From the IMG/VR virus record IMGVR_UViG_3300011116_000958, positions 1 through 33,848 of that record: 33,848 nucleotides of DNA. One strand, 5' to 3'. The position numbers and the translations under genes were made by a program. Each line of letters starts with the position of its first letter. Within the stretch, counting starts at the first letter, position 1. Positions 89-24,462 of the stretch are shown here, in pieces. This DNA is from a virus. Below the pieces are notes generated by a model. It made no database searches and was not told where the DNA came from. It saw only the letters and a program-made list of their open reading frames with translations.

Positions 89-355
89 ATGATCGCTGAC
101 GTGGCGCAGGGCGGTGACCGCCGCAAAACGTTGGAAGCAATCCGAGACAAGTTGGCTGCCGACATGGATGTGGCGCCGCCGGCCGTGAGCGCACAGCTCG
201 CCGGGCAACTCGTCAAGGTTCTGGCCGAGCTAGCGGAGCTTGGCAATCCGCAAAAGGTGTCGGCACTCGATGAGCTCGCAAACCGTCGCAAGGATCGGCT
301 CGCAGCGGCCGGCATTCCTGACGCTCCCAAACGACAGACGCGCAAGCGCGGGTGA
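89..355 (+). CDS. Putative terminase small subunit
   Basis: An 88-residue protein immediately upstream of and overlapping the large terminase gene. It has an N-terminal basic helix (RRKTLEAIRDKLAADM), an Ala/Leu-rich helical middle and a basic tail ending KRQTRKRG, which suits a DNA-binding packaging protein that recognises the nearby CATGCATG repeats. Small proteins of this type, beginning with a short RRKTLEAIRDxLA helix, commonly precede terL in actinobacteriophages; the small-terminase role is assigned mainly from position. A GTG three bases upstream (86) is an alternative start; the ATG at 89 has the better distance from the GAAGGG at 77-82. First gene of the late operon in this window. 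Confidence 0.6.
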   Translation: MIADVAQGGDRRKTLEAIRDKLAADMDVAPPAVSAQLAGQLVKVLAELAELGNPQKVSALDELANRRKDRLAAAGIPDAPKRQTRKRG

Positions 356-1703
356 CGAGGCTGCCGATCTTGCTGCGATGGCCGGTTTGCGGCTGGACGA
401 ATGGCAACGCTGGTGTCTGCACGAGATGTTGCAGACCGACGTCAACGGCAAGTGGTCAGCGTTCGAAGCAGCGATCGTCGTGCCACGCCAAAACGGCAAA
501 GGCGGCCTGCTCGAAGCACGTCAACTGTACGGACTGTTCCTCGGTGGAGAAGTCCTCCAGGTGCACACCGCACACGAGTTCAAGACAGCGTTCGAACACT
601 TCCTGCGTATCACGTCGCTGATCGAATCGACACCTGAGCTCGAGGAACGCGTGATGCGTATCCGTCGAGGCGCAGGTGAGCAGTCAGTCGAACTCAAGAC
701 CGGCGAACGCCTCCGGTTCCTTGCCCGATCAGCCGGGTCGGGTCGTGGCATGTCCGGGGACACTGTCTACGTCGACGAAGCGTTCGCGTTGACGCCACCG
801 ATCATGGGCGCATTGCTGCCCACGATGTCAGCGGTGCCGAACCCGCAGATCGTCTACACGTCAAGCGCTCCACGATTCGACCAAGCCGTTCTGTACGACC
901 TTGTCCAACGCGGCCGAGCTGGTGGTTCGCCTCGCCTGTTCTACGCCGAATGGGGCAACGACGAATCGGTCGACACCAACGACCGCGATGCCTGGGCCAG
1001 GGCCAACCCGGCGTTCGGTATCCGCATCGACGAATCGTTCATCGAGGCCGAACTGGACGCGATGCAATCGTTCCCGGAGGAGTTTCGACGGGAACGTCTC
1101 GGCATCGTGCAGACGTCGGATGTGTCCACCGTGCTGTCGATGCCGAAATGGCGGACCTGCACCGATCCGTACTCAACAGCCGAGAACGGTGTCGCTGCGT
1201 TGTCGGTCGGACCGGGATCCACGTGGGCAGCATTAGCCTTCGCAGCCCGGCGGCCAGATGGCTTGTTGCATGTCGAGGTCGCCCGCCACGAACAAGGCAC
1301 TGCATGGGTGCTTGAAGCCTGCCAACGTGCTCATGCTGACACCGGGCGGCCAATCGTGGTCGACCCAAAGTCGCCGACATCGGGCGTGATCGACCGGCTG
1401 GAACAGGCCGGCGTGCCGCTGCTGAAAATCGGTTTCCCTGAGTTCACGTCGGCGTGCGTCACATTCCAGGACGAACTCAATAACGAACGCATCCGTCATC
1501 TCGGCCAGGACCGGCTGACTGCGGCGGTCGCCAAGGTTGCCATCCGCACGTTCGGCGAATCGTGGGTGTTCTCAGCCCGCCAGTCCGAAGTCGACATCAC
1601 GCCATTGCTTTCGGTCGTGGTGGCAACGATCGGCTTACGCGACGGAAACAGCGAACAGTTCGATGGCGGGTTTGTTGACCTTGCCGACTTCCTCGAGGAT
1701 TGA
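270..1703 (+). CDS. terL: Terminase large subunit (ATPase/nuclease)
   Basis: DNA-packaging motor, 477 residues from ATG 270. The ATPase domain has a variant Walker A, PRQNGKG (residues 72-78), and a Walker B, VYVDE (166-170) with catalytic Glu170. It also has a motif-III-like YTSSAP segment after Walker B. The C-terminal half has the RNase H-like nuclease pattern, with a first acidic residue in VVVDPKS and a further conserved block around QSEVDITPL. The start is uncertain: ATG 270 keeps the conserved GSQRP...SAGDEAADLAAMAGL leader but overlaps the preceding gene by 86 bp. ATG 378 would remove that leader, and TTG 240 is less likely. Expected to work with the preceding small subunit and the portal at the procapsid vertex. 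Confidence 0.93.
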   Translation: MSSQTVARIGSQRPAFLTLPNDRRASAGDEAADLAAMAGLRLDEWQRWCLHEMLQTDVNGKWSAFEAAIVVPRQNGKGGLLEARQLYGLFLGGEVLQVHTAHEFKTAFEHFLRITSLIESTPELEERVMRIRRGAGEQSVELKTGERLRFLARSAGSGRGMSGDTVYVDEAFALTPPIMGALLPTMSAVPNPQIVYTSSAPRFDQAVLYDLVQRGRAGGSPRLFYAEWGNDESVDTNDRDAWARANPAFGIRIDESFIEAELDAMQSFPEEFRRERLGIVQTSDVSTVLSMPKWRTCTDPYSTAENGVAALSVGPGSTWAALAFAARRPDGLLHVEVARHEQGTAWVLEACQRAHADTGRPIVVDPKSPTSGVIDRLEQAGVPLLKIGFPEFTSACVTFQDELNNERIRHLGQDRLTAAVAKVAIRTFGESWVFSARQSEVDITPLLSVVVATIGLRDGNSEQFDGGFVDLADFLED

Positions 1704-1713: not shown

Positions 1714-1845
1714 ATGGGTACTGCGTTGCAACTGTTCGGCCTTGCCCTTCTCATCGTCGGGGCAGCGTTTGTGTCAATCCCTGCCGCTGTAGCGGCGCTG
1801 GGTGTCGTGTCGGTGTTCGTGGGGCTTGCTGCGGAGCGTGATTGA
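1714..1845 (+). CDS. Small two-helix membrane protein
   Basis: A 43-residue protein that is almost entirely hydrophobic: LQLFGLALLIVGAAFV then a proline turn and AAVAALGVVSVFVGLA, ending with the polar AERD. It sits 10 bp after terL and its TGA overlaps the portal ATG (TGATG). Short membrane proteins between terL and portal are frequent in actinobacteriophages but have no established role. Holin activity is possible but unsupported, because the lysis genes are elsewhere. Confidence 0.6.
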   Translation: MGTALQLFGLALLIVGAAFVSIPAAVAALGVVSVFVGLAAERD

Positions 1846-3323
1846 TGCTGCGTCAACTGTTCTCAAGTGCACCCGTCGAGGAACGCGCACAAGCCACCAC
1901 CTGGGGCGACTGGCCCGGCGACAACGCCACCACCGGCGCTGGAACCGTGTCGGAGCTTTCAGCGATGCAGCTGTTGGCGGTCGCCGGTTGCGTTCGCTTG
2001 ATTGCGGATTCGATCGCAACGCTGCCGGTCGACACGTACCGCAAGAACAGTGCTGGCGACCAGCTCGAGGTGGCACCACCCGCGTGGCTGATCGAGCCGA
2101 CCGTCGACCTCGACTTCACATCCTGGTGTACGCAAGCAATCACGTCGCTGCTGCTGCACGGCAACTGCTACATCATGGTGCAGCGCAACACGCTCGGCCA
2201 GATCGTCGAGATCCCCATCGTGGACCCGCAATCCGTGCAGGTGTTCCGTGACCGTGGCATGGTCCGCTACCGGATCAACGGCGCACTGTTCGACGGCCAG
2301 ATGGTGCACATCAAGGGCATGATGCTGCCCGGTTTCGATACCGGCCTGTCACCCCTCGAGTATGCGCGCCAGTCGATCGGGCTCGGCTTGAACGCTGTCG
2401 AGTTCGGCATCGACCAGTTCGCCACGTTCAACAACATGCCCGGCGTTATCGAGATCCCCAAGCGCGCCCAGCCCGATCAGATGACCGCGATGGCGCAGGC
2501 GTGGCGTCGGGCCCGTCAGAAACGCAACCGTGGCCTGCCCGGCGTGCTCGAGGACGGCGCCACATGGAAACCGACCGGTGTCACCAACGAGCAGGCACAG
2601 TTCCTCCAGCTGCGGCAATGGACCGCTGCCGAGATCGCCGGCCAGGTGTTCATGGTTGACCCCGCCGACCTCGGTATCCCAGTCGCCGGCACCTCGTTGA
2701 CCTACGCCAACCTTGAGCAGCGCAACATTCGCCGCCTGCAGGTCACGTTCCTGCCGTGGATCATCCGGCTTGAGAAGGCTTTGTCGGCGTTGCTGCCACA
2801 GCCCCGGTTCGTCAAGTTCAACGTCGACGGCCTGCTGCGCGGTGACTCGGCGACCCGATGGGCGATCTATCAGACCGCCTCCAACATCAACGCCGCCGCC
2901 GCCGGCTACGGCCAAGGCCCGGTGTTGTTGACGTCCGAGATGCGCAACCTTGAGGACTTGAATGCGTTGCCGGACTCGATGATCCCTGCACCGACCGCCG
3001 TCGCCGACCAGCAACCGGTTCAGACGAACTCGTCGGCTCCGGTGGCACCAGTGAACCTGACGCTGAACATGGGCGAGCAACGGTTTGAAGGCGCTCAGGT
3101 GACGGTGAACCCGCAGGTCGATGTGCATGTGCCCGAACAGGAACCGGCCAACGTGACGATCCGCCAGGAAGGCACGCAGGTGCATGTTGCGCCCGAGGTG
3201 TTCATTGAGAAGTCACCGGAGCCCGAGATTGTCCAGTCCACCAGCCCGAAAGTGACGAGGCGCATGGTTGAACGTGACGAGCTGGGCCGCATCGCCGTGA
3301 TCATCGACGAGGTCGTGTCATGA
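1845..3323 (+). CDS. Portal protein (HK97 family) with C-terminal beta-rich extension
   Basis: A 492-residue portal, the dodecameric ring for DNA entry and tail attachment. The N-terminal core shows the family pattern: SAMQLLAVAGCVRLIADSIA near residue 45, then VDTYRK, a HIKGM segment, YARQSIGLGLNAVEFG and LTYANLEQRNI. ATG 1845 overlaps the upstream stop by one base; a TTG at 1842 is the only nearby alternative. From about residue 382 onward there is a roughly 110-residue extension, TLNMGEQRFEGAQVTVNPQVD and onward, made of short alternating V-x-V strands and ending MVERDELGRIAVI. This looks like a beta-rich appendage beyond the portal core, and its role is unknown. The next gene starts in an ATGA overlap. 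Confidence 0.92.
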   Translation: MLRQLFSSAPVEERAQATTWGDWPGDNATTGAGTVSELSAMQLLAVAGCVRLIADSIATLPVDTYRKNSAGDQLEVAPPAWLIEPTVDLDFTSWCTQAITSLLLHGNCYIMVQRNTLGQIVEIPIVDPQSVQVFRDRGMVRYRINGALFDGQMVHIKGMMLPGFDTGLSPLEYARQSIGLGLNAVEFGIDQFATFNNMPGVIEIPKRAQPDQMTAMAQAWRRARQKRNRGLPGVLEDGATWKPTGVTNEQAQFLQLRQWTAAEIAGQVFMVDPADLGIPVAGTSLTYANLEQRNIRRLQVTFLPWIIRLEKALSALLPQPRFVKFNVDGLLRGDSATRWAIYQTASNINAAAAGYGQGPVLLTSEMRNLEDLNALPDSMIPAPTAVADQQPVQTNSSAPVAPVNLTLNMGEQRFEGAQVTVNPQVDVHVPEQEPANVTIRQEGTQVHVAPEVFIEKSPEPEIVQSTSPKVTRRMVERDELGRIAVIIDEVVS

Positions 3324-5940: not shown

Positions 5941-6879
5941 ATGCCCAGCATCATCGAACGCGCCGCCCGTGCCGAGCGCGAGACCCGATCGTTCACCGTT
6001 GCCGACCTTGAGCTGCGTGACGCCACCGACGGCTTCACCTTCGAAGGTGTCGCCTCGGTCGTGAACACCGGCTACCACGTCCGTGACCAGTGGGGCGACT
6101 ACACCGAGACGATCCTGCCTGGTGCGTTCAACCGCACCCTGAAGCAGAAAGCCGACGTCCGTCTCCTGGTGAACCACTCGGGTGTGCCACTCGCCAGAAG
6201 CAAGTCCGGCATCCTCAAGCTGACCGCTGACCCGAACCTGCGCGCCACCGCCACGCTCGACCCGTCAAACCCAACGGTGCAAGAGATCCGGTCGGCAATG
6301 AACCGTGGCGACCTCGACCAGATGTCGATCGGGTTCCGTGTCCGTGACGAGGAATGGTCGTCGGACTACTCGCAACGGTCGATCAAGGAGATCGAACTGT
6401 TCGACGTCTCGGTCGTCACCTACCCGGCCTCGCCGACAACCAGCGCCAGCCTGCGGTCGTTCGATGCGTTCATCGCCGACATCCGTGACGTCGACATGAC
6501 CCGCGACCAGATGCGTCGCGCCGTGCGAGCGCTGAACCGTCGTTTCGCCGACGTCTGGAACGAAGAAGTCGAATCATGGCTTGAGCTGGCGCTGAAGGCC
6601 CGCTTCGCCACCACGCCCTTGGCGATGATCGAGGTCGAGGACTTCAACGACCAGCAAGTCGTGTTCTGCCTTTACGGCACCGAAACCGACGGCTACTGGC
6701 AGGTCGGTTACACGCTGAACGCCGACAACAGCGTCACCCTGGACGACGCCGACCCGGTGCAGGTCAACGAGGTCGTCTCGTATGTGCCCATCCGATCCAA
6801 CCAGCAGTTCGAACAGCGCGACCGCGCCGACCGCGAAGCGTTGGAACGCAAGATCGCCGCCCGACCCGCCTTGGTCTGA
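5941..6879 (+). CDS. Prohead (capsid maturation) protease, HK97 U35/S78-like
   Basis: A 312-residue protein. The N-terminal 175 residues carry the prohead protease pattern: GFTFEGVASV, ETILPGAF, catalytic His in VNHS (His79) and catalytic Ser in QMSIGF (Ser129), then KEIELFDVSVVTYPA. It cleaves the capsid protein's N-terminal delta/scaffold segment during head maturation. A strong AGGAGG (5932-5937) precedes ATG 5941. Residues about 180-312 form an extra C-terminal domain, containing FADVWNEEVESWLELALKAR and YWQVGYTLNADNSVTL, that is not part of the protease fold. It may be a scaffold or a fused unknown domain. Confidence 0.9.
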   Translation: MPSIIERAARAERETRSFTVADLELRDATDGFTFEGVASVVNTGYHVRDQWGDYTETILPGAFNRTLKQKADVRLLVNHSGVPLARSKSGILKLTADPNLRATATLDPSNPTVQEIRSAMNRGDLDQMSIGFRVRDEEWSSDYSQRSIKEIELFDVSVVTYPASPTTSASLRSFDAFIADIRDVDMTRDQMRRAVRALNRRFADVWNEEVESWLELALKARFATTPLAMIEVEDFNDQQVVFCLYGTETDGYWQVGYTLNADNSVTLDDADPVQVNEVVSYVPIRSNQQFEQRDRADREALERKIAARPALV

Positions 6880-6996: not shown

Positions 6997-8280
6997 ATGG
7001 ACATCCGTACCCATGTGATCGCGCTCAACGAGGACCGGGCCCGTGTCGTCGAGCAGCTCCGCAGCGAGCTGGACTTCACCGCCGGTCGTGAGCGCACCGC
7101 CGAGGAGAGCCAGAAGATCGCCCGCCTCGACGCCCGCATCGACGAGATCGACGCCGAAGTGCGCGAGTTCGTCGCCCGCGAGACCCGCGAGCAGGAAGCC
7201 GCCGCCCTCCGCCAGCAGACGCTGTCGGTGTTCGGCGAGGCCCGCACCGCCCGCAACGACAAGGTGCAGGCCGATGCCTTCCGCCAGTGGCTCACCCACC
7301 GCAACGGCGACTTCGAGATCGACATCCAGCGCGCCATGAAGGAACGCCAGATGTTGCGCGCCGGTGCCTCGCCCGAGGAAATCCGTGCCCTCGCCTGGGA
7401 CGCCACCAGCGGCTCGCTCGTCGTGCCCACCACCATGGCCCGCAGCCTGTTCGACCTCCTCGAGGCCAACATCGCAGCGTTCCGCATCGGCGCCACCGTG
7501 ATGAACACCTCGAGCGGTGAGAACATGCAGCTGCCGAAGCTGACCACCCACGGCATCGCCACCCAGGTCTCCGGTCAGGGCACCACCCTTGCCGGTTCCG
7601 ACCCGGTGATGGGCCGCGTCAACCTCAACACCTACAAGTACGGCCAGCTCGTGCGTGTCTTTAACGAACTCGTCACCGACGCAGCGTTCGACATCTCGTC
7701 CTGGCTCGGTGGTGACCTCGGCTACGCCCTCGGTCGCGTGATCGACGCCGATCTCGTCGTCGGCACCGGCACCAACGAACCGACCGGCATGACCGTGCTG
7801 GCCGGCGCTGGCACCAACGCCCCGATCAAGACCGGCGGCTCGCTCATCGCCCCGACGGTGGAGAAGTTCATCGACCTGCAGTACTCGGTGGCGGACAGCG
7901 TCCGTCAGCGCGGCTCGTGGCTGATGAACGACAGCGTCGCCGGTTCGATCCGCAAGCTGCGTGACGGCGCCGGTGGCACCGTCGGTGCGTTCCTGTGGGA
8001 GCCGTCGCTGACTGCCGGCCTCCAGACCGGTCAGCCCGACCGGTTCCTCGGCAACCCCGTCTACTCGGACACCAACTGCGCGGCCGCCGGCTCCAACGCC
8101 ATCCTCGCCACGTTCGGTGACTTCTCCGAGTACGTCATCCGCACCGTCGGCAACCCGGTCATCGAGTCGGACGCCTCGCGCTACTTCGACACCGACGAGA
8201 CCGGCTTCCGTGGCAAGTGGCGCGTCGGCGGCAACCACCGCCAGGTCGGCTACCTCAACACGCTCGTCCAGAACGTGTGA
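6997..8280 (+). CDS. Major capsid protein, HK97 fold
   Basis: A 427-residue capsid protein. The N-terminal ~90 residues are charged and coiled-coil-like (ARVVEQLRSELDF, then ARLDARIDEIDAEVREFVAR), the delta/scaffold segment normally removed by the adjacent protease. The mature body shows the family signs: AWDATSGSLVVPTTMARSL, FNELVTDAAFDISSWLGGDL, an E-loop/P-domain-type layout and a C-terminal ESDASRYFDTDETGFRGKWR segment. ATG 6997 is preceded by GAAAGGACG at a suitable distance. A 117-bp untranslated gap without notable structure separates it from the protease gene. Its synonymous bias to C-ending codons is the strongest in the window, as expected for the most abundant product. Confidence 0.95.
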   Translation: MDIRTHVIALNEDRARVVEQLRSELDFTAGRERTAEESQKIARLDARIDEIDAEVREFVARETREQEAAALRQQTLSVFGEARTARNDKVQADAFRQWLTHRNGDFEIDIQRAMKERQMLRAGASPEEIRALAWDATSGSLVVPTTMARSLFDLLEANIAAFRIGATVMNTSSGENMQLPKLTTHGIATQVSGQGTTLAGSDPVMGRVNLNTYKYGQLVRVFNELVTDAAFDISSWLGGDLGYALGRVIDADLVVGTGTNEPTGMTVLAGAGTNAPIKTGGSLIAPTVEKFIDLQYSVADSVRQRGSWLMNDSVAGSIRKLRDGAGGTVGAFLWEPSLTAGLQTGQPDRFLGNPVYSDTNCAAAGSNAILATFGDFSEYVIRTVGNPVIESDASRYFDTDETGFRGKWRVGGNHRQVGYLNTLVQNV

Positions 8281-8307
8281 CCTTCCCAGCCCTAGCGGCT
8301 GGATGAT

Positions 8308-8365
8308 CGCCCCGGCAGGGGGGCGACAGGGCCGACCCGATGCACCTCCAGCGTCGGGTCGGCCC
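8308..8365 (+). terminator. Hairpin cluster after the capsid gene
   Basis: Two GC-rich hairpins lie just after the capsid stop. The first is CGCCCC (8308-8313) with GGGGCG (8320-8325). The second is GGGCCGACCCG (8329-8339) with CGGGTCGGCCC (8355-8365), a perfect 11-bp stem with a 15-nt loop. No T tract follows. They may act as a partial terminator or as a 3' mRNA stabiliser that keeps capsid expression above that of the modification genes downstream. Confidence 0.5.
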
Positions 8366-8407
8366 ACCCCTGCACAACCTGCCAACCAACCCTGCCAAGG
8401 AGAACCT

Positions 8408-8665
8408 GTGCCTGCACACCAGGTCGACAGCCACGACCTCGTGGCGACCATCAACCAACTGGAACGCGCCGGAGAACACGTGATCACGATCACGCCGTTC
8501 ACCGGTTCGACCTACGTGGTCGTCACCCGATACGTGGACCGCAATCAGACACGTCTTGCCGCAGTCACACATGCCGCACGTGTCGGCGCAGACAAATGGG
8601 ACCGCGACCCTTTGCTGCACAGCTTCCTGACCGACCACATCGTCACCGACGAGGTCGCCAAGTGA
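8408..8665 (+). CDS. Small unknown protein at head of modification cassette
   Basis: An 85-residue protein starting at GTG 8408 behind a good AAGGAG (8398-8403). Sequence such as HDLVATINQLERAGEHVITITPFTG followed by VVTRYVDR suggests a small alpha/beta fold. No catalytic motif, membrane helix or zinc site is seen. Its stop overlaps the GTG of the glycosyltransferase gene, so the two are probably translationally coupled. It lies in a cassette of glycosyl- and methyltransferases inserted between the capsid and connector genes. Function unknown. Confidence 0.6.
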   Translation: MPAHQVDSHDLVATINQLERAGEHVITITPFTGSTYVVVTRYVDRNQTRLAAVTHAARVGADKWDRDPLLHSFLTDHIVTDEVAK

Positions 8666-10569
8666 AGATCCTCCTGCACTCCAACTCGGCCACCGTCAAG
8701 ACCGGCTACGGCGTCCAGATCGCACTACTCGCCGATCGCCTCGCCGACGACGGCCACCAGGTGGCGATCTCGGCAACCTACGGCGCACCCGCCGCCACCG
8801 GCCTGACCACATGGGTGTCGCCTCGAGGACACAAGATCCCGGTGTACCCGTCGTGGTTCCTCGTGTCCGGCGACGACGTGATCTGCGCCCACGCCAAACA
8901 GTTCTTCGGTTCCGACGAAGGCTGGATCCTGCCGCTGCTCGACGTGTGGTCATTGACCACACCGAACCTTGCCGAGTTCAACGTCGCCGCCTGGGCGCCC
9001 GTCGATCACGACCCCGTTCCCAACATGGTGCTGCGGTTCTTCGAACGGTCCAACGCCCGTTGCATCGCAATGTCGAAACACGGTCTTGGCGAATTCGCTA
9101 AGCACGACCTTGAGCCGGCATATATTCCGCTGGCGGTTGACACCAAGGTCTACAAACCGACTTTCACTGCCACCATCGACGGCCGTCAGGTCACGGGACG
9201 CGAGTTCCTGCAGATCGACGACAGGGCGTTCGTGGTTGGCATGGTCGCAATGAACAAGGACCCGAACGACCGCAAAGGTTTTGCCGAAGCATTCCAAGCG
9301 TTCAGCCGGTTCCACCAACAGCATCCGAACTCGGTGCTGCATGTCCACTCGGAGAAGTCCGGCACCGCCGGCGGCGTGAACCTGCCCGAACTGGCAGCGA
9401 TGACCGGCATCCCCGAACATGCCATCCGCTACACCAACCAGTACGCCTACATGATCGGGTTTCCGGCCGAACTGATGGCGTTGATGTACACGGCGTTCGA
9501 CGTGCTCCTCGCCCCGTCCAGGGGGGAGGGGTTCGGTGTGCCGCTGATCGAGGCACAAGCCTGCGGCGTCCCGGTCATCACCTCGGCGTTCACCGCCCAA
9601 CAGGAGCTCGTCGGCAACGGCTGGCTGGTGTCCGGCCAGTTGAACTGGGACGGTCCGTCACGGTCGTGGTATCAGACCCCGAACGTGTTCGAAATCGAAC
9701 GAGCGCTCAACAAGGCGTACGCAGCAGACCTCGCAGCAATGCAGGACGAATGTGTCGCCTTCGCAGCCCAGTATGACGCCGACCACGTGTACGACACCTT
9801 CTGGCGTCCGTACCTGGCGACACTCAACCTTGAGCCGCCGGCGACCAAGCCGATGATGGATGACGTCGCCGTGCTGGTGCCCGCGATGAACCGGCCGCAC
9901 AATGTGCCCCGACTGGTCGACTCGTTCAACGCCACCAACGACGGCACCGCCAACCTGTACTACATCCTTGACGAAACCGATCACGCACAGATCGAAGCAG
10001 TCGAACAGGCCGGCGCACGTTGGCTGCCCGCCCGACGCGGCACCTCGTACGCCTGCAAGAACAACGAGGCGTTCGAACAGACCACCGAATCGTTCGTGTT
10101 CCTTGCGGGTGACGACGTCGAGTTCACGCCCGGCTGGATCGCCGCCGCACGCAAACTGTCCGACCGCTACGACGTGATCGGCACCAACGACAGCGAACCC
10201 GGTCGAGTCCGCAACCCGCTGGTCGCAGCAGGCAAACACGCCGACCATTTCTTCGTCCGACGTTCCCACGTCCTTGAGGACGGAACATCGCTCGAAGGGC
10301 CCGGCATCCTCTGCCCCGAGGCGTACTACCACTGGTACTGCGACAAGGAAATGATCCAACTCGCCAAGGCCCGTGGAGTGTTCACACCCTGCCTCGATTC
10401 GGTCGTCATCCACCACCATCCCGGCTACGACGGACGCGAGGACCTGCGCGCCAACGACCCGACCTACATGAAAGCGGTCGAGTTCTCCGAAATGGACGAA
10501 ATCGCATTCAAGCGACGTGCCGGCCTCATCGAACAGCACCAGGTCGTCAAGAAGGACATCTGGTCATGA
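8662..10569 (+). CDS. Two-domain glycosyltransferase (GT4-like + GT2-like fusion)
   Basis: A 635-residue fusion. Residues 1 to about 390 are GT-B/GT4-like: HSNSATVKTGYGVQIALLADRL at the start, a central YIPLAVDT segment, and the E-x7-E donor site SRGEGFGVPLIEAQACGVP. Residues about 400-615 resemble a GT-A/GT2 domain: VAVLVPAMNRP at the start, AGDDVEF (near 482) as the metal/nucleotide-sugar DxD region, and a late HHHPGYDG. Two sugar-transfer activities in one chain suggest sequential addition to an acceptor. The acceptor is unknown; position directly after the capsid gene favours virion proteins over host wall. GTG 8662 overlaps the upstream stop and the 3' end overlaps the GT17 gene by ATGA. 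Confidence 0.82.
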   Translation: MKILLHSNSATVKTGYGVQIALLADRLADDGHQVAISATYGAPAATGLTTWVSPRGHKIPVYPSWFLVSGDDVICAHAKQFFGSDEGWILPLLDVWSLTTPNLAEFNVAAWAPVDHDPVPNMVLRFFERSNARCIAMSKHGLGEFAKHDLEPAYIPLAVDTKVYKPTFTATIDGRQVTGREFLQIDDRAFVVGMVAMNKDPNDRKGFAEAFQAFSRFHQQHPNSVLHVHSEKSGTAGGVNLPELAAMTGIPEHAIRYTNQYAYMIGFPAELMALMYTAFDVLLAPSRGEGFGVPLIEAQACGVPVITSAFTAQQELVGNGWLVSGQLNWDGPSRSWYQTPNVFEIERALNKAYAADLAAMQDECVAFAAQYDADHVYDTFWRPYLATLNLEPPATKPMMDDVAVLVPAMNRPHNVPRLVDSFNATNDGTANLYYILDETDHAQIEAVEQAGARWLPARRGTSYACKNNEAFEQTTESFVFLAGDDVEFTPGWIAAARKLSDRYDVIGTNDSEPGRVRNPLVAAGKHADHFFVRRSHVLEDGTSLEGPGILCPEAYYHWYCDKEMIQLAKARGVFTPCLDSVVIHHHPGYDGREDLRANDPTYMKAVEFSEMDEIAFKRRAGLIEQHQVVKKDIWS

Positions 10570-11366
10570 GGCGCCCGATCATCATCGACGTGTTCCCGTT
10601 CAACAACGAGCTGGACATGCTGCAATGCCGCCTCGAGGAAATGGCCCCGGCGGTCGACTACTTCGTCGCCATCGAAGCCGACGTCGACCACCAGGACCAT
10701 CCCAAGCCGTTCCATCTCACCGAGAACCTCCAACGGTTCGATGCCTGGGCGGACAAACTTATCGTCATCCGGGCGACTGGGATGCCGACACTTGCCGACG
10801 ACCCCGATCCGTGGGCGCGTGAACTTGCCCAGCGTGAATACGCAATGGACGGGCTCCGCAAGATCAATCAGCGCACCGAACTGCACGAAGACGACATCGT
10901 CCTTCACGGCGACGTCGACGAAATCTGTCGGGCATTGCATGTCCGCAATGTCCGCCCACGCGACCGGTTCGTCACCTTTGAACAGCGACTGCACTGCTTC
11001 GCAGTCGACTGGCTCCACCCTGACCCGTGGGGGGGGACAGTGGCCGCCACCTTGAAGGGTCTCGGTTCACTCGGGCAGTGGCCGTTCCAGAAACTGCGCA
11101 ACACCCGCAACGCCAACACCCCGATCCGTGACGCCGGTTGGCATCTGTCGTGGTTGGGTGGCAAAGAGGCGGCGCTGGCGAAGCTCGGATCGTTCTGCCA
11201 CCCGGAGATCGCTGACCGGACACTGGTCGGGCTGTCAACCGACCTGTACCTGCGCGAAGGGTTTCATGTCGACGGCCGGCGCATGAAACCGGTCGACGTC
11301 GACAACACATGGCCCGCCATGATCGCCGAGCGTCGCTGCCCGGAAGTGTGGTTCCGTCCCCGATGA
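10566..11366 (+). CDS. Glycosyltransferase family 17-like protein
   Basis: A 266-residue protein matching the GT17 (beta-1,4-N-acetylglucosaminyltransferase-like) pattern: VFPFNNELDMLQCRLEEM at the start, then DYFVAIEAD, DIVLHGDVDEI with the DxD at Asp116-Asp118, and DAGWHLSWLGG followed by KLGSFCHPE. This family is common in phage and in bacterial polysaccharide loci; donor and acceptor cannot be predicted here. It is flanked by ATGA overlaps on both sides, so it is co-translated with the two-domain glycosyltransferase and the methyltransferase, indicating a single modification pathway. Confidence 0.82.
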   Translation: MRRPIIIDVFPFNNELDMLQCRLEEMAPAVDYFVAIEADVDHQDHPKPFHLTENLQRFDAWADKLIVIRATGMPTLADDPDPWARELAQREYAMDGLRKINQRTELHEDDIVLHGDVDEICRALHVRNVRPRDRFVTFEQRLHCFAVDWLHPDPWGGTVAATLKGLGSLGQWPFQKLRNTRNANTPIRDAGWHLSWLGGKEAALAKLGSFCHPEIADRTLVGLSTDLYLREGFHVDGRRMKPVDVDNTWPAMIAERRCPEVWFRPR

Positions 11367-12439
11367 GTTTCTTCACCGAAAACTGGTTCCACAACGAATC
11401 ATGCGATCGCCTCGCCCAGCTCGGCCGACAGGTCGAACACGTACCAGGCGACATCATCGAGATCGGATCATGGGAAGGCCGCTCGACCAGCGTTCTCGCC
11501 AACGCAATCCGACCCCGGATCGTTCACGCCGTCGACACCTGGCAGGGTTCACCCGGCGAAATCTCGTCCGAACTTGCCAGCCAGCGCGACGTGTTCGCCA
11601 CGTTCCAGAACAACATGGCGCAACTCACCGGTGGCAACGTGATCGCCCACCGTTCCGGTTGGCGTGACTACCTCCAAGACCGCACCGAACCGATCGCCAT
11701 GGTGTTCATCGACGCCGAACACACCTACCGTGAGGTCTACGACAACATCCGGGCCGTGCTGCCACACATGTCGCCCGGCGGCGTCATCTGCGGCGACGAC
11801 GCCCACCACCCACCGGTCGCCCAGGCAGTCATGGAACTGTTGCCGAACGACGAGCTGCTGCAAGGCGGCAACGTGTGGTCGTGGACGAAGCCGACATTGC
11901 GGCAGCAGTACGAACAGGTCTGCGCCACACCGTCGGACATCTACCTGCACCTGCCACGTATGGTCGAACTGGTCACGTCCGGCAACTGCACCAAGGTGCT
12001 CGAGCTGGGCACCCGCACCGGTGTGTCCACCATCGCCTGGCTCCACGCCCTCGCACAGACCGGCGGACACCTGTGGTCGGTCGACATCGACACCCGACCG
12101 GCAATCGGCACCCACCCGCACTGGACTTACATCCAAGGCGACGACATGGCAGCCGTCGTGCAAGCCCAGCTGCCGGAACCATTCGACATCGTGTTCATCG
12201 ACACGTCACACCACTACCGGCACACCAAAGCCGAACTGGACCGCTACCAGCACATGGTCCGACCCGGCGGATTGATCGTCTGCCACGACACCGAACTGCC
12301 GATCCCTAAGGGCGCACCGGCCGGCGACCCGACATTCCCGGTGAAACGGGCCATCGAGGAGTTCGTCGCCACCACCGGCTACCGCTGGTTCAACTTCCCC
12401 GACTGTTGGGGTCTCGGCATCATCGAGGTGAAACCATGA
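11363..12439 (+). CDS. Tandem-duplicated SAM-dependent methyltransferase
   Basis: A 358-residue protein with two class I methyltransferase domains. Domain 1 has motif I IIEIGSWEG (31-39), an acidic D/E after strand 2 (AVDTWQG), and VFIDAEHTYREVYDNIRA. Domain 2 has motif I VLELGTRTG (about 212-220), SVDIDTRP and VFIDTSHHYRHTKAELDRY. The parallel order of these motifs shows internal duplication. Similar domains (Methyltransf_24 type) methylate sugars or small acceptors, and with the preceding glycosyltransferases O-methylation of a transferred glycan is the likeliest role (inference). Ends in an ATGA overlap with the head-tail connector. Confidence 0.8.
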   Translation: MSFFTENWFHNESCDRLAQLGRQVEHVPGDIIEIGSWEGRSTSVLANAIRPRIVHAVDTWQGSPGEISSELASQRDVFATFQNNMAQLTGGNVIAHRSGWRDYLQDRTEPIAMVFIDAEHTYREVYDNIRAVLPHMSPGGVICGDDAHHPPVAQAVMELLPNDELLQGGNVWSWTKPTLRQQYEQVCATPSDIYLHLPRMVELVTSGNCTKVLELGTRTGVSTIAWLHALAQTGGHLWSVDIDTRPAIGTHPHWTYIQGDDMAAVVQAQLPEPFDIVFIDTSHHYRHTKAELDRYQHMVRPGGLIVCHDTELPIPKGAPAGDPTFPVKRAIEEFVATTGYRWFNFPDCWGLGIIEVKP

Positions 12440-13059
12440 CTCTGACCAACTCGTACGCCACCATGGCAATGCTCAAGGCGGAGCTGAACATCGGACAGGC
12501 TGACACCTCGTACGACAGCAAGCTCGAAATGGCACTCAACGCCGCATCCCGGCAGATCGATCGGCATTGCGGTCGTCGGTTCTGGCAAGACACGGCAGTC
12601 GTGCAGCGCGAGTACTACGCAGACAACGCATACGACTGTTTCGTCGATGACATCTCGACAACGACCGGGCTGGTCGTCAAGGTTGATGACGCCGGCGACG
12701 GTTCGTACGGGACAACGCTGACGATCACCACGAACTTCATCCTGCTGCCACGCAATGCCGACCACGAAGTACCGGATGAGCCGTTCACGCAGATCCGGCT
12801 GGTCGATAGCGGCATCACCGCCTTCCCGGTCTGGTCGTCGGGTCGACCCGGTGTACGTGTCACCGCAAAGTTCGGATGGCCTGAGGTTCCCGACGACGTC
12901 GAGAAAGCCTGTCTGATCCAAGCGACTCAGCTGTTCAAGGCATCCGACGCAGTGTTCGGCGGACTCAACTTCGACGGGTCCATCCTCCGAGTCCGTGAAA
13001 CCTTGAACCCGATGGCGGCCGCGCTCGTCGAGTACTACGTCAAGCCGAGAGTCGCATGA
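12436..13059 (+). CDS. Head-tail connector (adaptor) protein
   Basis: A 207-residue protein of the HK97 gp6-like connector type: SYATMAMLKAELNI at the start, YDSKLEMALNAASRQIDRHC with a helical bundle, a beta middle, WPEVPDDVEKACLIQATQLF and a C-terminal LNPMAAALVEYYVKPR. It binds beneath the portal to extend the DNA channel. It resumes the structural module after the modification cassette, which confirms that the three enzyme genes are an insertion into a standard head gene order. Stop/start overlaps couple it to both neighbours. Confidence 0.8.
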   Translation: MTLTNSYATMAMLKAELNIGQADTSYDSKLEMALNAASRQIDRHCGRRFWQDTAVVQREYYADNAYDCFVDDISTTTGLVVKVDDAGDGSYGTTLTITTNFILLPRNADHEVPDEPFTQIRLVDSGITAFPVWSSGRPGVRVTAKFGWPEVPDDVEKACLIQATQLFKASDAVFGGLNFDGSILRVRETLNPMAAALVEYYVKPRVA

Positions 13060-13466
13060 CCACCATCGCTGACGTTCGCACCGATCTCGTCAACGTCCTC
13101 GCCAACATCCCCGGCTGGAGCACGTCGAACGGCTACGTCGGCGACCAGCTCAACACCTACAGCTTCAAGGTCAGCCGATCAGCCTTCGACCCTCGCATGG
13201 TGTTCTCGCAAGCAAAAGCGACGCACCAGTTCACCGTTGCCGCCTACGCCCCTCGAGCAACGCCAGAAGTGTCAGAAGCAGCATTGGATGCGCTGTGTGA
13301 ACTGTCGGGGGAGGGGTCGCTGATCGCCACCGTCCAGGACGGCACGAACTGGTCAGTGACCGTCGATTACGCCGTGGTCACCAACTGCGGCGAAGTGCAA
13401 TCAATCACATGGATCGACGGCGTTGAATACCTCGCCGTCCAGTTCACGATCGAGGTCTGCTGGTAA
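13056..13466 (+). CDS. Putative tail terminator / second connector
   Basis: A 136-residue protein: ATTIADVRTDL-like start, AFDPRMVFSQAKATHQFTVAA, SEAALDALCELSGE and a C-terminal EVQSITWIDGVEYLAVQFTIEV. Size, alpha/beta layout and position between connector and tail-tube gene are those of tail terminator or neck proteins. The assignment rests mainly on position. The ATGA overlap upstream and the one-base overlap downstream place it in the same translational block as its neighbours. Confidence 0.6.
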   Translation: MTTIADVRTDLVNVLANIPGWSTSNGYVGDQLNTYSFKVSRSAFDPRMVFSQAKATHQFTVAAYAPRATPEVSEAALDALCELSGEGSLIATVQDGTNWSVTVDYAVVTNCGEVQSITWIDGVEYLAVQFTIEVCW

Positions 13467-14182
13467 TGGCATTCGTAGCGTCATACAACTCACGTCTGTT
13501 CGTCGGTGCCGCACAGTGGGCATCATACGCCAGGGGTTTCACCTACAACGACGACACCGCCATGCTTGACGTCACCACCTTGGTCGACACATCGAAGCAG
13601 TACATCCCCGGCCAGCGCACCGGCACCGTGTCCTTGGACCTGCTGCTTGACACCGCCGCAACTGCCGGTGGCGAGTTCGCCACACTGAACACGTGGAAAG
13701 GCACCCCGCAGGTCTTGTCGCTCGCGCCATCCGGCACCGCACGATCAGCCGAAACCTGGCTGTTGCAAGCCAACCAGTCGAACGCCACCGTCACCGCACC
13801 GGTCGCCGACGTCGTCACCGCAGCAGTGTCAATCCAATGCGACGGCGGAGTGGACGCCGGTGTCGTCCTTGACCCCACCACGGCCATCACCGCCACCACC
13901 TCGTCAACATCGGTCGACAACACGACCAGCAGCAGCAACGGCGGCGTCGCACACCTGCACGTCACTGCCTACTCCGGTCTGACGTCGAACACGATCACCG
14001 TCGAACACTCGACGAACAACTCCACCTGGGCAACCCTCGGCACCTTCACCGTCGTTTCCGGCACAACCGCAGAACGACTGGTCATCGCGGCAGGAACCAC
14101 CGTCAACCGCTACCTGCGCGTCACCGACACCATCGTCGGCGTCGGCAGCTGCACACGTTTCGTCAGCTTCGCCCGTCGCTGA
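13466..14182 (+). CDS. Tail tube paralogue with C-terminal Ig-like domain
   Basis: A 238-residue protein. Residues 1-130 resemble a phage tail tube subunit: SYNSRLFVGAAQWASYARGF, AMLDVTTLVDTSKQYIPGQR then GTVSLDLLLD. Residues about 145-238 (VAHLHVTAYSGLTSNTITVE then STWATLGTFTVVSG and RYLRVTDTIVG) form a beta-sandwich-like domain like those displayed on tail or head surfaces. The next gene encodes a shorter relative without this appendage. Whether this copy is a minor, decorated tube subunit or the main one is open. Confidence 0.65.
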   Translation: MAFVASYNSRLFVGAAQWASYARGFTYNDDTAMLDVTTLVDTSKQYIPGQRTGTVSLDLLLDTAATAGGEFATLNTWKGTPQVLSLAPSGTARSAETWLLQANQSNATVTAPVADVVTAAVSIQCDGGVDAGVVLDPTTAITATTSSTSVDNTTSSSNGGVAHLHVTAYSGLTSNTITVEHSTNNSTWATLGTFTVVSGTTAERLVIAAGTTVNRYLRVTDTIVGVGSCTRFVSFARR

Positions 14183-14218: not shown

Positions 14219-14632
14219 ATGGCATTCAAGGCCGGCACCACCTCAGCGTTCTATCTGGCGAACGCTGCGGGAGCACTGCAGAACCTGTCGGCCTACGCCG
14301 ACAACCTGTCGTTCCCGCAGTCGACCGACCAGCTCGACGTCAGCACGTTCGGATCCGCATCCAAGGGTTTCATCCCCGGCCTCCAGGACGGCGACACCTA
14401 CAGCATGTCGGGCCCGTACGACGTCGCCATCCACACCCAGCTGACGACCGCCAAGTCGGCCGGTTCGCTGCTCGGGTTCATCTTCGGTCCCGGCGGCTCG
14501 GTGGCAGCGCAGGCACGCACCGCAGGCTCGGTGTACGTCGCCCAGTACTCGGTGTCAACCTCGGTCGGCGGCCGTGTTGAGTACTCGGCGTCGCTGCAGG
14601 TCACCGGCGCAGTCTCCAACGGCACCTTCTGA
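14219..14632 (+). CDS. Major tail tube protein
   Basis: A 137-residue protein with the same core as its upstream neighbour: AFYLANAAGALQNLSAYADNL, then DQLDVSTFGSASKGFIPGLQ and MSGPYDVAIHTQL, ending EYSASLQVTGAVSNGTF. It has its own strong ribosome site (AGGAGA, 14209-14214) after a 36-bp gap, as expected for the abundantly made tube subunit, whereas most neighbours are coupled by overlaps. The tube forms hexameric rings around the tape measure. No slippery-sequence tail-assembly chaperone pair follows it. Confidence 0.75.
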   Translation: MAFKAGTTSAFYLANAAGALQNLSAYADNLSFPQSTDQLDVSTFGSASKGFIPGLQDGDTYSMSGPYDVAIHTQLTTAKSAGSLLGFIFGPGGSVAAQARTAGSVYVAQYSVSTSVGGRVEYSASLQVTGAVSNGTF

Positions 14633-18553: not shown

Positions 18554-19171
18554 ATGCCCGACTCAGGGCTTGCAGATGGCTCGGTCTTGACCAGCGCCAA
18601 CTACGACACCTACTTGCGCCAACAGGTCGTTGCGCAGGTGACGTCGACCACTCGGCCGACCGGCGTAGAAGGCCGGTTGATCACCGAGACCGACACCGAC
18701 CGCATCGTCTGTCACGACGGCACGAACTGGATCCGTGTCGGGTCGTACTCGTCGGCTGGCCGCAGCGGCATCAGCCTGTCGCGCATCTCGACCACACAGT
18801 CGATCCCGAACGGTGCAGCCACGTTCACGGCGATCTCGTGGGACACCGAATCGACCGACACCGACGGTTACATCGCGGTGCCGTCAACGAACATCACGAT
18901 CCCGACCGGGCTTGGCGGGTTCTACGCAGTGACGGCGACGTGCAGTTGGGCGTCATCGCCCGGTGCGAACTCGAGCATCGAGTTCTACAACTCGACCACC
19001 ACCGGCATCTGGCGGTTCCCGATCGGTGCCGGCACACAGATGACGTCATCAGCGTTGACGATGATCGCCGATGTCGCCGCCGGTGACGTATGCCAGCTGC
19101 GCGTATCGCAGGCATCCGGTGCCGCCATCAACGTGAACGCCACGATTCAGATGTGGAGGCTGTCAGCATGA
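18554..19171 (+). CDS. Minor tail / receptor-binding protein, jelly-roll-like
   Basis: A 205-residue protein after AGGAGG (18544-18549). The N-terminus (DGSVLTSANYDTYLRQQVV, then RPTGVEGRLITETDTDRI) is the attachment segment seen in many actinophage minor tail proteins. The C-terminal half (IPNGAATFTAISWDTE, ITIPTGLGGFYAVTATCSW, then QLRVSQASGAAINVNATIQM) has the strand order of a C1q/TNF-like jelly roll, commonly found as a trimeric tip. Probable host-surface contact; the ligand is unknown. Ends in an ATGA overlap with the endolysin gene. Confidence 0.65.
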   Translation: MPDSGLADGSVLTSANYDTYLRQQVVAQVTSTTRPTGVEGRLITETDTDRIVCHDGTNWIRVGSYSSAGRSGISLSRISTTQSIPNGAATFTAISWDTESTDTDGYIAVPSTNITIPTGLGGFYAVTATCSWASSPGANSSIEFYNSTTTGIWRFPIGAGTQMTSSALTMIADVAAGDVCQLRVSQASGAAINVNATIQMWRLSA

Positions 19172-19800
19172 TCGAGTTCCCACCCGTCGAGATGCCACGC
19201 GACCTCACCGGTGTCGCCAACGGCCACCTCGGCCCATGCAACCTCACCACCGTCTTCTTTCCGGCGGTCGGGCATCTGTCGTTGCATCCGCTGGCGGCAC
19301 GTGCGTGGCACGCCATGACGGCCATCTGCAAGGCGGAAACATCGGTCGATTTGACCACGACCGGCACCTACCGGTCGTATGACGCGCAGCTGCAACTGTT
19401 CCTGCAGCGTTACACCGACTCGTTCATCCCGCTACGCAACGTCGTCACCAACCAGCGCACATGGCAGGGCAAGACATGGTGGCTACGTCGAGGCATGGCA
19501 CCCGCCGCCGTGCCGGGCACATCCAACCACGGTTGGGCAATCGCAAACGACATCGCGATCGCCGCCAAGGTGTATGACGCAGCGTCGAAGTCGTGGAAGC
19601 AAAAGGTGATCGGCATCACTGCCGACGCCAAGATTTGGAACTGGGTGCAGGCGAACGCGATGTCGTTCGGTTTCGGTTGGGAAGGTGCCCGACCGGGACA
19701 ACCAGGTTGGGAACCGTGGCACATCCGCTACTGGGCGGGCGACCGGGTTCCGCAGCGTGTCCTCGACGTCGAGGCGTGGTTTGCAGGAGTCAAGCCATGA
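19168..19800 (+). CDS. Endolysin, VanY-type D-alanyl-D-alanine carboxypeptidase/peptidase
   Basis: A 210-residue peptidoglycan peptidase. It carries the VanY/LAS zinc motifs: GTYRSYDAQ (66-74), S-N-H-G-W-A-I-A-N-D with zinc ligands His121 and Asp128, and EPWH with catalytic Glu182 and zinc ligand His185. The consensus Gly of the SxHxxGxAxD motif is Ala here (Ala124). There is no signal peptide, so release needs a holin. The two following small membrane-protein genes are candidates. Cuts the stem peptide or cross-bridge; exact bond not predictable. Confidence 0.85.
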   Translation: MIEFPPVEMPRDLTGVANGHLGPCNLTTVFFPAVGHLSLHPLAARAWHAMTAICKAETSVDLTTTGTYRSYDAQLQLFLQRYTDSFIPLRNVVTNQRTWQGKTWWLRRGMAPAAVPGTSNHGWAIANDIAIAAKVYDAASKSWKQKVIGITADAKIWNWVQANAMSFGFGWEGARPGQPGWEPWHIRYWAGDRVPQRVLDVEAWFAGVKP

Positions 19801-20087: not shown

Positions 20088-20808
20088 CCAGGCACCGGCA
20101 GCGTTGGACATCGTGGCCGTCAAGGGCGACGACCTGACGATCACGTTGACGATCACCGAGAACGGCACCGCCTACGACTGGACCGGTGCCACCGTTGCCA
20201 CGTCGATCTTGGATGCGTCGGGCACGGCGGTCGCCACGAACTTTACGACCGCCACACCGGCCAACGGCACGCTCGCGTTGACGTTGAACGACACGCAGAC
20301 CACGACGCTCGGTGTCGCCACCTACCGCTGGCAGGTCAACGTCACCAAGGCCAGCGCCACCCGCACCTGGCTGGCCGGTGGCCTGTCGGTCATGCAGCCG
20401 GGCTGGGGCGGCACGTCGACCTCGAGCGCGTCGCTGTCGATCACGACCGGCGCAGTCACTGTTGCGGTCACCGGCCAGTTGACCGGCGCGCAAGGCCAGT
20501 GGGACACGGCGCAGACGATCAACGCCCAGACTGGCACCACCTACACGCTGGTGGCCGGTGATGTCGGCAAACTTGTCACCCTGTCGAACGCCGCTGCCGT
20601 CACGTTGACGGTGCCCAGCGGCCTTGGCCTCGCCGCAGGGCAACGCATCGACATCGCCCAGCTTGGTGCCGGACAAGTCACGGTCGCGGCGTCGGGCACT
20701 ACGATCAACTCGACGCCGGGCTTGAAGCTGCGAGCGCAGTATTCGGCGGCGTCGCTGATCTGCACTGCGACCAACACGTTCCTGCTGGTTGGTGACCTCA
20801 GTGCCTAG
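20074..20808 (+). CDS. Tail protein with BppU-like N-terminus
   Basis: A 244-residue protein. The N-terminal ~105 residues (VAVKGDDLTITLTITENGTA, DWTGATVATSILD then TTTLGVATYRWQVNVT) follow the pattern of phage baseplate upper protein N-terminal domains. The C-terminal half (TGTTYTLVAGDVGKLVTLSN, VTLTVPSGLGLAAGQRIDI then GQVTVAASGTTINS) is a beta module widely found at the ends of tail fibres. Probably a tail-tip component. It starts within the end of the membrane protein gene behind AAGGGGG (20060-20066). Confidence 0.65.
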   Translation: MATISQAPAALDIVAVKGDDLTITLTITENGTAYDWTGATVATSILDASGTAVATNFTTATPANGTLALTLNDTQTTTLGVATYRWQVNVTKASATRTWLAGGLSVMQPGWGGTSTSSASLSITTGAVTVAVTGQLTGAQGQWDTAQTINAQTGTTYTLVAGDVGKLVTLSNAAAVTLTVPSGLGLAAGQRIDIAQLGAGQVTVAASGTTINSTPGLKLRAQYSAASLICTATNTFLLVGDLSA

Positions 20809-22165
20809 CACCATTGGGATCGTCGCTTCGGGCGAGGACGTGTTGAACGATGCCGTGTTCTGGGTTGACGCCGGCCGGTCGTCTGTGGTGTCAGGCGCGC
20901 TCAGCAACCTTGGCACTGGCGGTTCGGCGCTGAATGCCGTGTTCGGCAACTCGACTGGCGTCGACTCGTTCGACCCGGCGTTGCTGGCACACACCGGCAC
21001 AAACTACCTGTACCTGCCTGGTGTAACTGGAAATGCTGCATCAGCCACCAACTTGGCTAGCTACACGCCATCAAGTTCACTTCAGTTGGACTGGGACTTC
21101 ACGCCTAGTGACCTGACGGCGGCAGAGCAATCGCTGATCACCCACTTTGGAAGTGCTGGCAACCGAGGTTGGCGCTTGTCGCTTGGCACAACGGCATTCG
21201 CTCTTGTCTGGTCAACCGACGGCGGCGACGTAAACGTCGCGTCCCAGGCCGTGTCGTTCGCGACCATGGGCGTTGCTGTTGGGGTTCGTAGCCGTGGCCG
21301 TGTGATCTTGCGGTTCAACAACGGCGGCGGCGTGTACGACGTTCGCTGGTACACCGTGGATGCGAACGGCAACGCAACGCTGGTTGAAACCGATCAAGGC
21401 GCAGCTACCACCTCAATCTTTGCTTCGACACAAAACCTTGAAATCGGAACTCGAACCGGTTTAGGTATTCCCCTGTCTGCTGCGATCTACAGGGCAAAAG
21501 TGACGGTGGACGGCACCACCGTGTTTGACGCCGACTTCACGACCGGCATCACCAGCGGCGCGCAAACCACGTTCACCGAGTCATCGGCCAACGCTGCCAC
21601 CGTCACGATCAACCGTTCAACGTCAGGCCGCAAAGCCGTTGCCGTCACACGCCCGATCCTGTTGTTCGGCACCGACGACTACCTCGAGGTCGCCGACAAC
21701 GACCTGCTCGACTTCGGCGCCAGCGACTCGTTCACCGTCGTGGCCGTCGTGCGCCAGTGGGCGACACCCATAAACTTTGGCCGAAGCATCAGCAAATCAG
21801 CAGTGTCCGGCGCAGGCTGGCAAATGCTCAACAATGGTACGTCGGCGATTCGGTACCTAACAATCAATGACGGCACTGTGAATCTCAATGCGGGAACTGC
21901 CAATCCATACACTCTGAACTCTTTGGCAATCACTAGTGCTGTTCGAGACACGGTGGCCGACAGGGTGACCTTGTACAACGGCACGTCGGCCCAGCTTGGT
22001 ACAACAGATACCACAACGGCCTCGTTGGCGAACTCGGTGCCAATGAGAATCGGCCAAACCGGCGGCGGGGGCGGTCAATCTGATTTTGAACTGGTCGCCG
22101 CTGCTGTCTGGCGTCGAGCGCTGAACGCCAACGAGATCGCCACCATCGTCGCCCGCTACACATAG
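20801..22165 (+). CDS. Tail adhesin with two LamG-like modules
   Basis: A 454-residue protein from GTG 20801 (8-bp overlap with the previous gene; GTG 20792 and TTG 20789 are alternatives). It contains two related lectin-like halves. The first runs from DAVFWVDAGRSSVVSG through LQLDWDFTPSDLTAAEQSLI to AIYRAKVTVDGTTVFDADF. The second runs from DDYLEVADNDLLDFGASDSF through SFTVVAVVRQW to ELVAAAVWRRALNANEIATI. Repeated concanavalin-like domains indicate carbohydrate binding at the tail tip. The DNA at 21000-21500 and 21770-22060 is less GC-rich than its surroundings, typical of adhesin modules under exchange. Confidence 0.65.
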   Translation: MPSTIGIVASGEDVLNDAVFWVDAGRSSVVSGALSNLGTGGSALNAVFGNSTGVDSFDPALLAHTGTNYLYLPGVTGNAASATNLASYTPSSSLQLDWDFTPSDLTAAEQSLITHFGSAGNRGWRLSLGTTAFALVWSTDGGDVNVASQAVSFATMGVAVGVRSRGRVILRFNNGGGVYDVRWYTVDANGNATLVETDQGAATTSIFASTQNLEIGTRTGLGIPLSAAIYRAKVTVDGTTVFDADFTTGITSGAQTTFTESSANAATVTINRSTSGRKAVAVTRPILLFGTDDYLEVADNDLLDFGASDSFTVVAVVRQWATPINFGRSISKSAVSGAGWQMLNNGTSAIRYLTINDGTVNLNAGTANPYTLNSLAITSAVRDTVADRVTLYNGTSAQLGTTDTTTASLANSVPMRIGQTGGGGGQSDFELVAAAVWRRALNANEIATIVARYT

Positions 22166-23874: not shown

Positions 23875-24104
23875 AACGGAGGCCGGTGTGGATCCGCTGG
23901 CACGATGCAGCGCATGTGGGCGCAGGGGAATGGCTCGAAGCCCTCGCCGACACCGCCGTGACTGTCCACACCGTTGGGATCCTCATCCGCAAGACCAAGA
24001 CCCACCTCGTCGTCGCCCACTCGGCCGACTCGTCCGGCAACGTCACCGGCGTGTTCTCCATCCCACGTTCCGCCGTGGAGGACTGGGGCGAACTGTCTGA
24101 CTAG
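23871..24104 (+). CDS. Small unknown protein, last gene of the late operon
   Basis: A 77-residue protein: VWIRWHDAAHVGAGEWLEAL, then HTVGILIRKTKTHLVVAHS and FSIPRSAVEDWGEL. This W-x-D-A ... GxLIxxTxxxLVVA ... IPRxxV pattern is seen in a widespread family of short phage proteins of unknown function, probably a small beta-barrel. It is the last gene before the strong terminator at 24135. Confidence 0.6.
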   Translation: MKRRPVWIRWHDAAHVGAGEWLEALADTAVTVHTVGILIRKTKTHLVVAHSADSSGNVTGVFSIPRSAVEDWGELSD

Positions 24105-24134
24105 ATCGCGACCTCTCCGCTGGTCGCTGAGCGC

Positions 24135-24181
24135 ACACCCCTCGCCGGGCCCCCAACGGCGAGGGGTGTTGCTGCATTTTT
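24135..24181 (+). terminator. Rho-independent terminator of the late operon
   Basis: A perfect 12-bp stem: ACACCCCTCGCC (24135-24146) pairs with GGCGAGGGGTGT (24158-24169), with an 11-nt loop. A T run follows a few bases later (24177-24181). It ends the rightward structural/lysis operon before attP. Confidence 0.85.
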
Positions 24182-24190
24182 GGCGGTCAT

Positions 24191-24210
24191 CGCGCGGAGT
24201 CGCGCGGAGT
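24191..24210. repeat. Left arm-type repeats (attP)
   Basis: Two exact tandem copies of CGCGCGGAGT, followed by a partial CGC. The motif differs at one base from the copies on the other side of the tRNA-like core. Position and pairing fit integrase arm-binding sites. Confidence 0.6.
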
Positions 24211-24293
24211 CGCACCAAAAACGACCCAGACCCACAGCCCGTTTACCTGCGGTTTCGCGATCTACCAAAACATAAAACCCCTGATAACCGTGC

Positions 24294-24336: not shown

Positions 24337-24339
24337 AAG

Positions 24340-24380
24340 CGAAACCCCTGCTCAGGACACAAATCCGGGCAGGGGTTTCG
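24340..24380 (+). terminator. Inverted repeat after the tRNA-like core
   Basis: CGAAACCCCTG (24340-24350) pairs perfectly with CAGGGGTTTCG (24370-24380), with a 19-nt loop; TACGTTTTCG follows. This is the form of a terminator placed after a tRNA gene, so the att identity may extend through it. It could also shield integrase from read-through. Confidence 0.55.
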
Positions 24381-24456: not shown

Positions 24457-24462
24457 GCCCCG

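Follow-up and report, generated by a model that had tools for sequence, protein, structure and literature searches.

The window analysed here is the whole IMG/VR virus record IMGVR_UViG_3300011116_000958 (33,848 bases), and it carries a cassette of sugar-transfer and methylation genes inside its head operon. We believe that this cassette belongs to the head gene cluster as a virion-glycosylation module, in which cytosolic enzymes would attach a methylated glycan to one of the virion proteins, and we give this reading a probability of roughly 0.7. A cytosolic protein acceptor is indicated by the combination of soluble transferases and sugar-type O-methyltransferases, the overlap with head genes, and the lack of lipid-carrier or export genes. 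The cassette is preceded by a structured RNA leader, which is an addition to the reading given in the initial annotation, a note made from the sequence of this window. The conserved leader is found in a large subgroup of cassette phages and looks able to control cassette translation.

Apart from the cassette, the head and tail genes are in the usual order of terminase, portal, protease, capsid, adaptor, tail terminator, tail proteins and tape measure (Table 1). The initial annotation had placed four genes at 8408-12439 between capsid and connector, and the open reading frames, their domains and the flanking PF05065 and phrog_442 matches confirmed this.

Table 1. Features of the window discussed in the text (SD, Shine-Dalgarno sequence).
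Feature	Position	Strand	Evidence
Terminase	240-1703		
Portal	1842-3323		
Protease	5941-6879		
HK97-type major capsid protein, directly 5' of cassette	6997-8280	+	PF05065 E 1.1e-42; phrog_10 3.7e-50
Structured RNA leader, capsid-to-cassette gap	8281-8407	+	Folding z, covariation, R1 model match
Leader small hairpin	8286-8302		
Leader arm A, GGCAGGGG	8314-8321		
Leader 15-bp hairpin	8329-8365		
Leader alternative 3' arms	8367-8373 and 8378-8383 (B1)		
Leader arm B2, abutting SD	8390-8396		
SD of first cassette gene, AAGGAG	8397-8402		
sm85, 85-aa protein, cassette gene 1	8408-8665	+	Positional relatives; AF2
Bifunctional glycosyltransferase, GT4 + GT2-like	8662-10569	+	Pfam/PHROG profiles; EX7E
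GT17-family glycosyltransferase	10566-11366	+	PF04724 8e-20
Tandem SAM methyltransferase, Methyltransf_24/TylF + RMNT_CmcI	11363-12439	+	Profiles
Head-tail adaptor, ATGA-coupled to methyltransferase	12436-13059	+	phrog_442 1.5e-18; junction sequence
Tail terminator	13056-13466		
Two related major tail proteins, tandem	13466-14182 and 14219-14632		
Integrase	23974-25551		

The genes had also been described as overlapping. The 4-nt overlaps are there, but three of the starts needed correction: the bifunctional glycosyltransferase begins at a GTG (8662) and not at the ATG at 8596, the methyltransferase begins at an ATG (11363) and not at 11309, and the adaptor begins at ATG 12436. With these starts, GTGA and ATGA overlaps chain the cassette to the adaptor, and there is a 4-base overlap at every junction from the 85-aa gene through the tail terminator. 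The same overlaps were present in 13/13, 24/26, 21/22 and 15/27 distinct contigs for the four junctions respectively.

The first gene product, sm85, matched no family in a profile search and gave no significant match in a fold search. We consider the reading frame to be real because relatives with 21-71% identity occupy the matching position. AF2 predicts an N-terminal beta-alpha-beta-beta domain and a disordered tail (pLDDT about 92 for residues 1-40 and about 50 beyond). For the other three genes, profiles agree with the fused GT4/GT2 transferase, GT17 transferase and double methyltransferase of the initial annotation, except for the GT2 half. The GT4 domain is clear (Glyco_trans_1_4, E 9e-13, 49 bits vs a cut-off of 27; phrog_2170, 1.4e-30), and its E-x7-E motif at residues 289/297 is invariant in 12 sequences, including those of Pontimonas phage phiPsal1 and Microcystis phage Mae-JY09. 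The C-terminal half has a conserved GDD and matches PF13641 (0.002) and phrog_14945 (8e-7), but the GT2 profiles scored under the Pfam cut-off (18.5 vs 27 bits and 17.0 vs 23.3 bits), so we name this domain GT2-like only. The GT17 protein scored 71.6 bits against a cut-off of 26 and has a D-x-D-E motif (DVDE) at 116-119 that is invariant in 11 sequences. Its AF2 model (pLDDT 91.8) has GT-A enzymes among its top PDB matches, including collagen galactosyltransferase, at TM 0.4-0.45, which informs on fold class only.

The two methyltransferase domains match Methyltransf_24 (N-terminal, 1.4e-37) and RMNT_CmcI (C-terminal, 3.5e-11). The nearest PDB entries are annotated as O-methyltransferases and include NovP and 6g7d, which we take to be MeT1. 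MeT1 of Mycobacterium hassiacum is a methylmannose polysaccharide 1-O-methyltransferase (PMC9883506). MeT1 and NovP resemble the C- and N-terminal domains respectively, but the similarity is weak (E 5e-5 and 7e-3) and the sugar substrate is not transferable.

We queried IMG/VR with the GT17, the glycosyltransferase and the capsid, and obtained relatives whose capsids have about 50-96% identity. Wherever the contig of a near relative extends beyond the capsid gene, it has a glycosyltransferase in the same slot, and with the cassette present in all of these contigs we rejected the idea of an insertion peculiar to this genome. The glycosyltransferase profile search gave more than 590 stretches, and we kept the best 80 of them. 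Among these best 80, 68 contigs had an ORF of at least 200 aa just upstream of GT4, and the ORF directly 5' of GT4 was Phage_capsid in 66 of the 68, a count inflated by the many close relatives among them, which are not independent events. The neighbouring gene was not selected for, since the search used the glycosyltransferase alone. Downstream ORFs in the same best 80 of more than 590 matched MT_24 (28), GT17 (21), RMNT_CmcI (16), GT2 (6) and nucleotide-sugar epimerase (2), and heptose-type nucleotidyltransferase genes were also found downstream of GT4, followed by connectors.

When we tabulated the architecture of about 60 distinct contigs, GT4 was always present, GT17 was present in most, and there were between 0 and 3 methyltransferase domains; one contig (L026) had the reversed order in the cassette. 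The "duplicated methyltransferase" of the initial annotation does have two domains here, but with 0 to 3 between relatives it is just one state in which the decoration set, itself variable, can occur. Of the cultured phages, phiPsal1 (GT4, methyltransferase, GT2) and Mae-JY09 (GT4 and epimerase) have a filled slot. A comparison of gene order with cassette-less relatives had been suggested, and Streptomyces phage Heather and Bordetella phage PHB09 do have an empty slot. The cassette thus interrupts the usual order when compared with outgroups that lack it, as had been claimed, but it occupies a conserved slot and is the normal state within its own clade, with more distant relatives lacking it.

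Some contigs had features of their own. L028 has tandem GT17 genes (12-1138), the second just 38% identical to the GT17 of the window. L070 has a single methyltransferase in two overlapping frames (8273-8844), due to a frameshift or a sequencing error, and this contig was binned with a Mycobacterium MAG. The sole genome match, a 27.9-kb phage-like contig from the bin of a Mycobacterium MAG, is too weak to assign a host.

Divergence of GT4 tracks that of the capsid (rho 0.81, 72 contigs, a value not reached in 999 permutations). Within the near clade, distance correlations were 0.90 for capsid and glycosyltransferase, 0.94 for capsid and GT17, and 0.94 for portal and capsid. Against four relatives, dN/dS was 0.09-0.26 for the glycosyltransferase and 0.10-0.22 for GT17, which resembles head genes, by a simple counting method and with synonymous changes partly saturated. 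Taken together with the intact catalytic motifs, these results mean that the cassette is an inherited part of the head module. The cassette is co-inherited with portal, capsid and tail genes to much the same degree. Since the correlation with capsid is no stronger than for other head genes, it speaks for co-inheritance and not for the capsid as acceptor.

By analogy, the nearest precedent for the cassette is in the Corndog-type phages. For Corndog and Firecracker (cluster O), the describing authors proposed that the capsid is modified with methyl groups and glycans (PMC4351075). The head operon of these phages includes three transferases beside a TylF/MT_24 O-methyltransferase (gp35-38 and gp33-36 respectively), but the genes lie between portal and protease, whereas here they are between capsid and adaptor, and the transferases are GT2-like, GT25-like and unassigned, with no GT4 or GT17. 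We had considered Corndog gp38 as a GT17 and rejected this because its Firecracker homologue is GT25-like. According to work cited in PMC12619734, mycobacteriophages carry glycans at capsid and tail-tube C-termini. In Che8-type virion glycosylation, as reported (Freeman et al. 2023), the transferases are likewise encoded by the phage, and the glycans are on capsid and tail-tube subunits. The related F1 phage Maravista differs in having its transferase genes near the 3' end of the genome, and the capsid of the window does not have a comparable Ser/Thr extension at its C-terminus. The order in phiPsal1 (MCP-GT4-MT-GT2-neck) uses the same slot with a homologous GT4 (36%), and its head genes have 27-37% identity. 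However, its GT4 is not fused to GT2, it has no GT17, its methyltransferase is a different one on the opposite strand, and the gap from capsid to GT4 has a canonical intrinsic terminator (L002 5905-5973) instead of the RNA leader.

We propose that during late expression the soluble GT4/GT2 and GT17 enzymes would build a short glycan in the cytoplasm on a newly made head or tail protein, at Ser/Thr or another residue, and that the two methyltransferase domains would O-methylate it. The RNA leader probably keeps cassette output under that of the adjacent capsid gene. We infer the substrate, the order of the steps, the glycan chemistry and the direction in which the leader acts. GT4 is kept in every variant seen and may carry out the core transfer or the first one; GT2, GT17 and the 0-3 methyltransferase domains are variable and may extend and cap the glycan. 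The methylated virion glycan of the initial annotation remains the best reading given the soluble enzymes, the motifs, purifying selection, the head-operon position and the Corndog precedent, but the sequence did not identify the acceptor. When we compared C-termini and Ser/Thr density, there was no clear answer. The MCP C-termini have no Ser/Thr-rich tail, so a site of the Che8 type is not evident. At the C-terminus of the second tail protein there is a conserved TF with Ser/Thr nearby, which is not a specific sign of a glycan site. The highest Ser/Thr density is in a 20-mer with 14 Ser/Thr, located in a linker of the first of the two tandem tail proteins (13466-14182), and this linker is a possible acceptor. 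We also looked at the tail protein at 18554-19171 as a BclA-like collagen acceptor and rejected it, as the BclA_C match was weak and under the cut-off and the sequence has no collagen repeat.

Envelope polysaccharide clusters commonly hold sugar enzymes of these families, and this phage encodes an integrase, which would both suit enzymes that modify a host envelope polymer for superinfection exclusion or receptor masking, like the gtr genes of temperate phages. Such a role has been proposed for Tweety gp104 (PMC2884959). We nevertheless consider it improbable here, as no cassette protein has a likely membrane-spanning segment, flippase and polyprenyl-phosphate transferase families are absent among the ORFs scanned, and in all variants the cassette is within the head operon and overlaps head genes. 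A gtr-type seroconversion module would have a flippase and a polyprenyl-linked transferase beside the transferase, and the cassette has neither. Hypermodification of phage DNA is very unlikely: DNA can be a substrate of phage glycosyltransferases and the methyltransferase matches one PHROG that carries a DNA methyltransferase label, but we rejected that label given the O-methyltransferase annotation of the nearest solved relatives and the absence of a [DN]PP[YFW] motif, and no base-modification genes were recognised among the ORFs scanned.

Upstream of this proposed virion-glycosylation module, the 127-nt gap between capsid and cassette has a folding z of -5.2 against shuffles (-5.1 to -7.7 in five relatives). 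The complement of arm A is arm B2, located at the SD of cassette gene 1; many leaders have a further complement, B1, on the 5' side of B2. In 26 leaders, 87% of the cells of the A:B2 helix are paired and 8 of 11 pairs change on both sides, with 29 such cells; none of 500 shuffles reached this and slid helices gave at most 10 cells. RNAalifold recovers the A:B2 helix unaided. The single good match of the R1 model in the window is the leader (E 5e-14), although the window itself is in the training set.

Over 64 loci, cassette-strand matches of the covariance model, some of which are training sequences, were only between the capsid and the first cassette gene; reverse-strand matches were weaker and mostly on the same hairpins. 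The model had no match in cassette-less relatives, Firecracker, phiPsal1, Mae-JY09, or GT17-bearing phages lacking this layout. Five matches outside the training set (L108, L097, L092, L113 and L090, with L090 and L092 being weak matches) show new compensated arms. An endonuclease VII-type gene (932-1480) lies between capsid and leader in L048, unassigned ORFs separate the two in L020, L108, L109, L085, L089 and L097, and in L020, L108 and L085 among others the leader is far from the capsid. Because it adjoins the cassette even in such cases, we conclude that the leader belongs to the cassette. Rfam 15 had no family at the gathering threshold in the window and nothing credible at E<=1 in 8200-8480, and in literature mainly outside subscription journals we found no description of this arrangement. 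We regard the leader as a candidate new RNA family.

It is plausible that the leader is a translational switch for the cassette. A covarying helix at the SD and a mutually exclusive helix are both present; about half of the leaders have a strong B1 alternative and the others a weak one. A:B2 has the lower energy in most leaders and A:B1 in a few. In the window, A:B2 abuts the SD and does not include it. When we constrained the folds, the SD was partly paired in both states and its accessibility differed little between these static folds, so we hold the switch as a hypothesis. That result would also suit a mere hairpin terminator or mRNA-stability element behind a highly expressed capsid gene, with no translational switch, as would the terminator of phiPsal1 in the same gap and the hairpin that cassette-less relatives too have 3' of the capsid gene. 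We give this explanation a little less than an even chance. However, the covarying arm is the one right at the SD, many leaders retain a second complementary copy, there is no U-tract, and the leader goes with the cassette and not the capsid when an ORF intervenes. A simple post-capsid hairpin is insufficient as a full account given the covariation of the SD arm and the linkage to the cassette.

More tentatively, the switch could belong to a new class of cis-regulatory RNAs in phages. In this reading, arm A would pair with B1, which is transcribed before B2, and leave the SD open, and would then refold onto B2 and close the glycosylation operon. This would set the amount of coat-modifying enzymes against that of capsid, and sm85 or the capsid protein might be a feedback ligand.

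Virion glycosylation by phages has so far been reported for mycobacteriophages. That hundreds of phages, most of them uncultivated, have this fixed slot beside the capsid gene suggests that sugar coats may be general in a large phage group, and they may vary through swapped methyltransferases and extra transferases. The conserved leader would be a handle on how coat modification is dosed against coat synthesis.

There were two further observations. In another group of GT4 phages (L120, L124, L128 and L132), the gap between capsid and GT4 has hairpins with CGCAGG in the loop and CCTGCG copies downstream; one copy overlaps a GTG start, perhaps the same logic in the form of a pseudoknot. The tail region of the window also encodes a VanY-type peptidase (19090-19800) and a protein with a Laminin_G_3 (concanavalin-like) domain (20789-22165).
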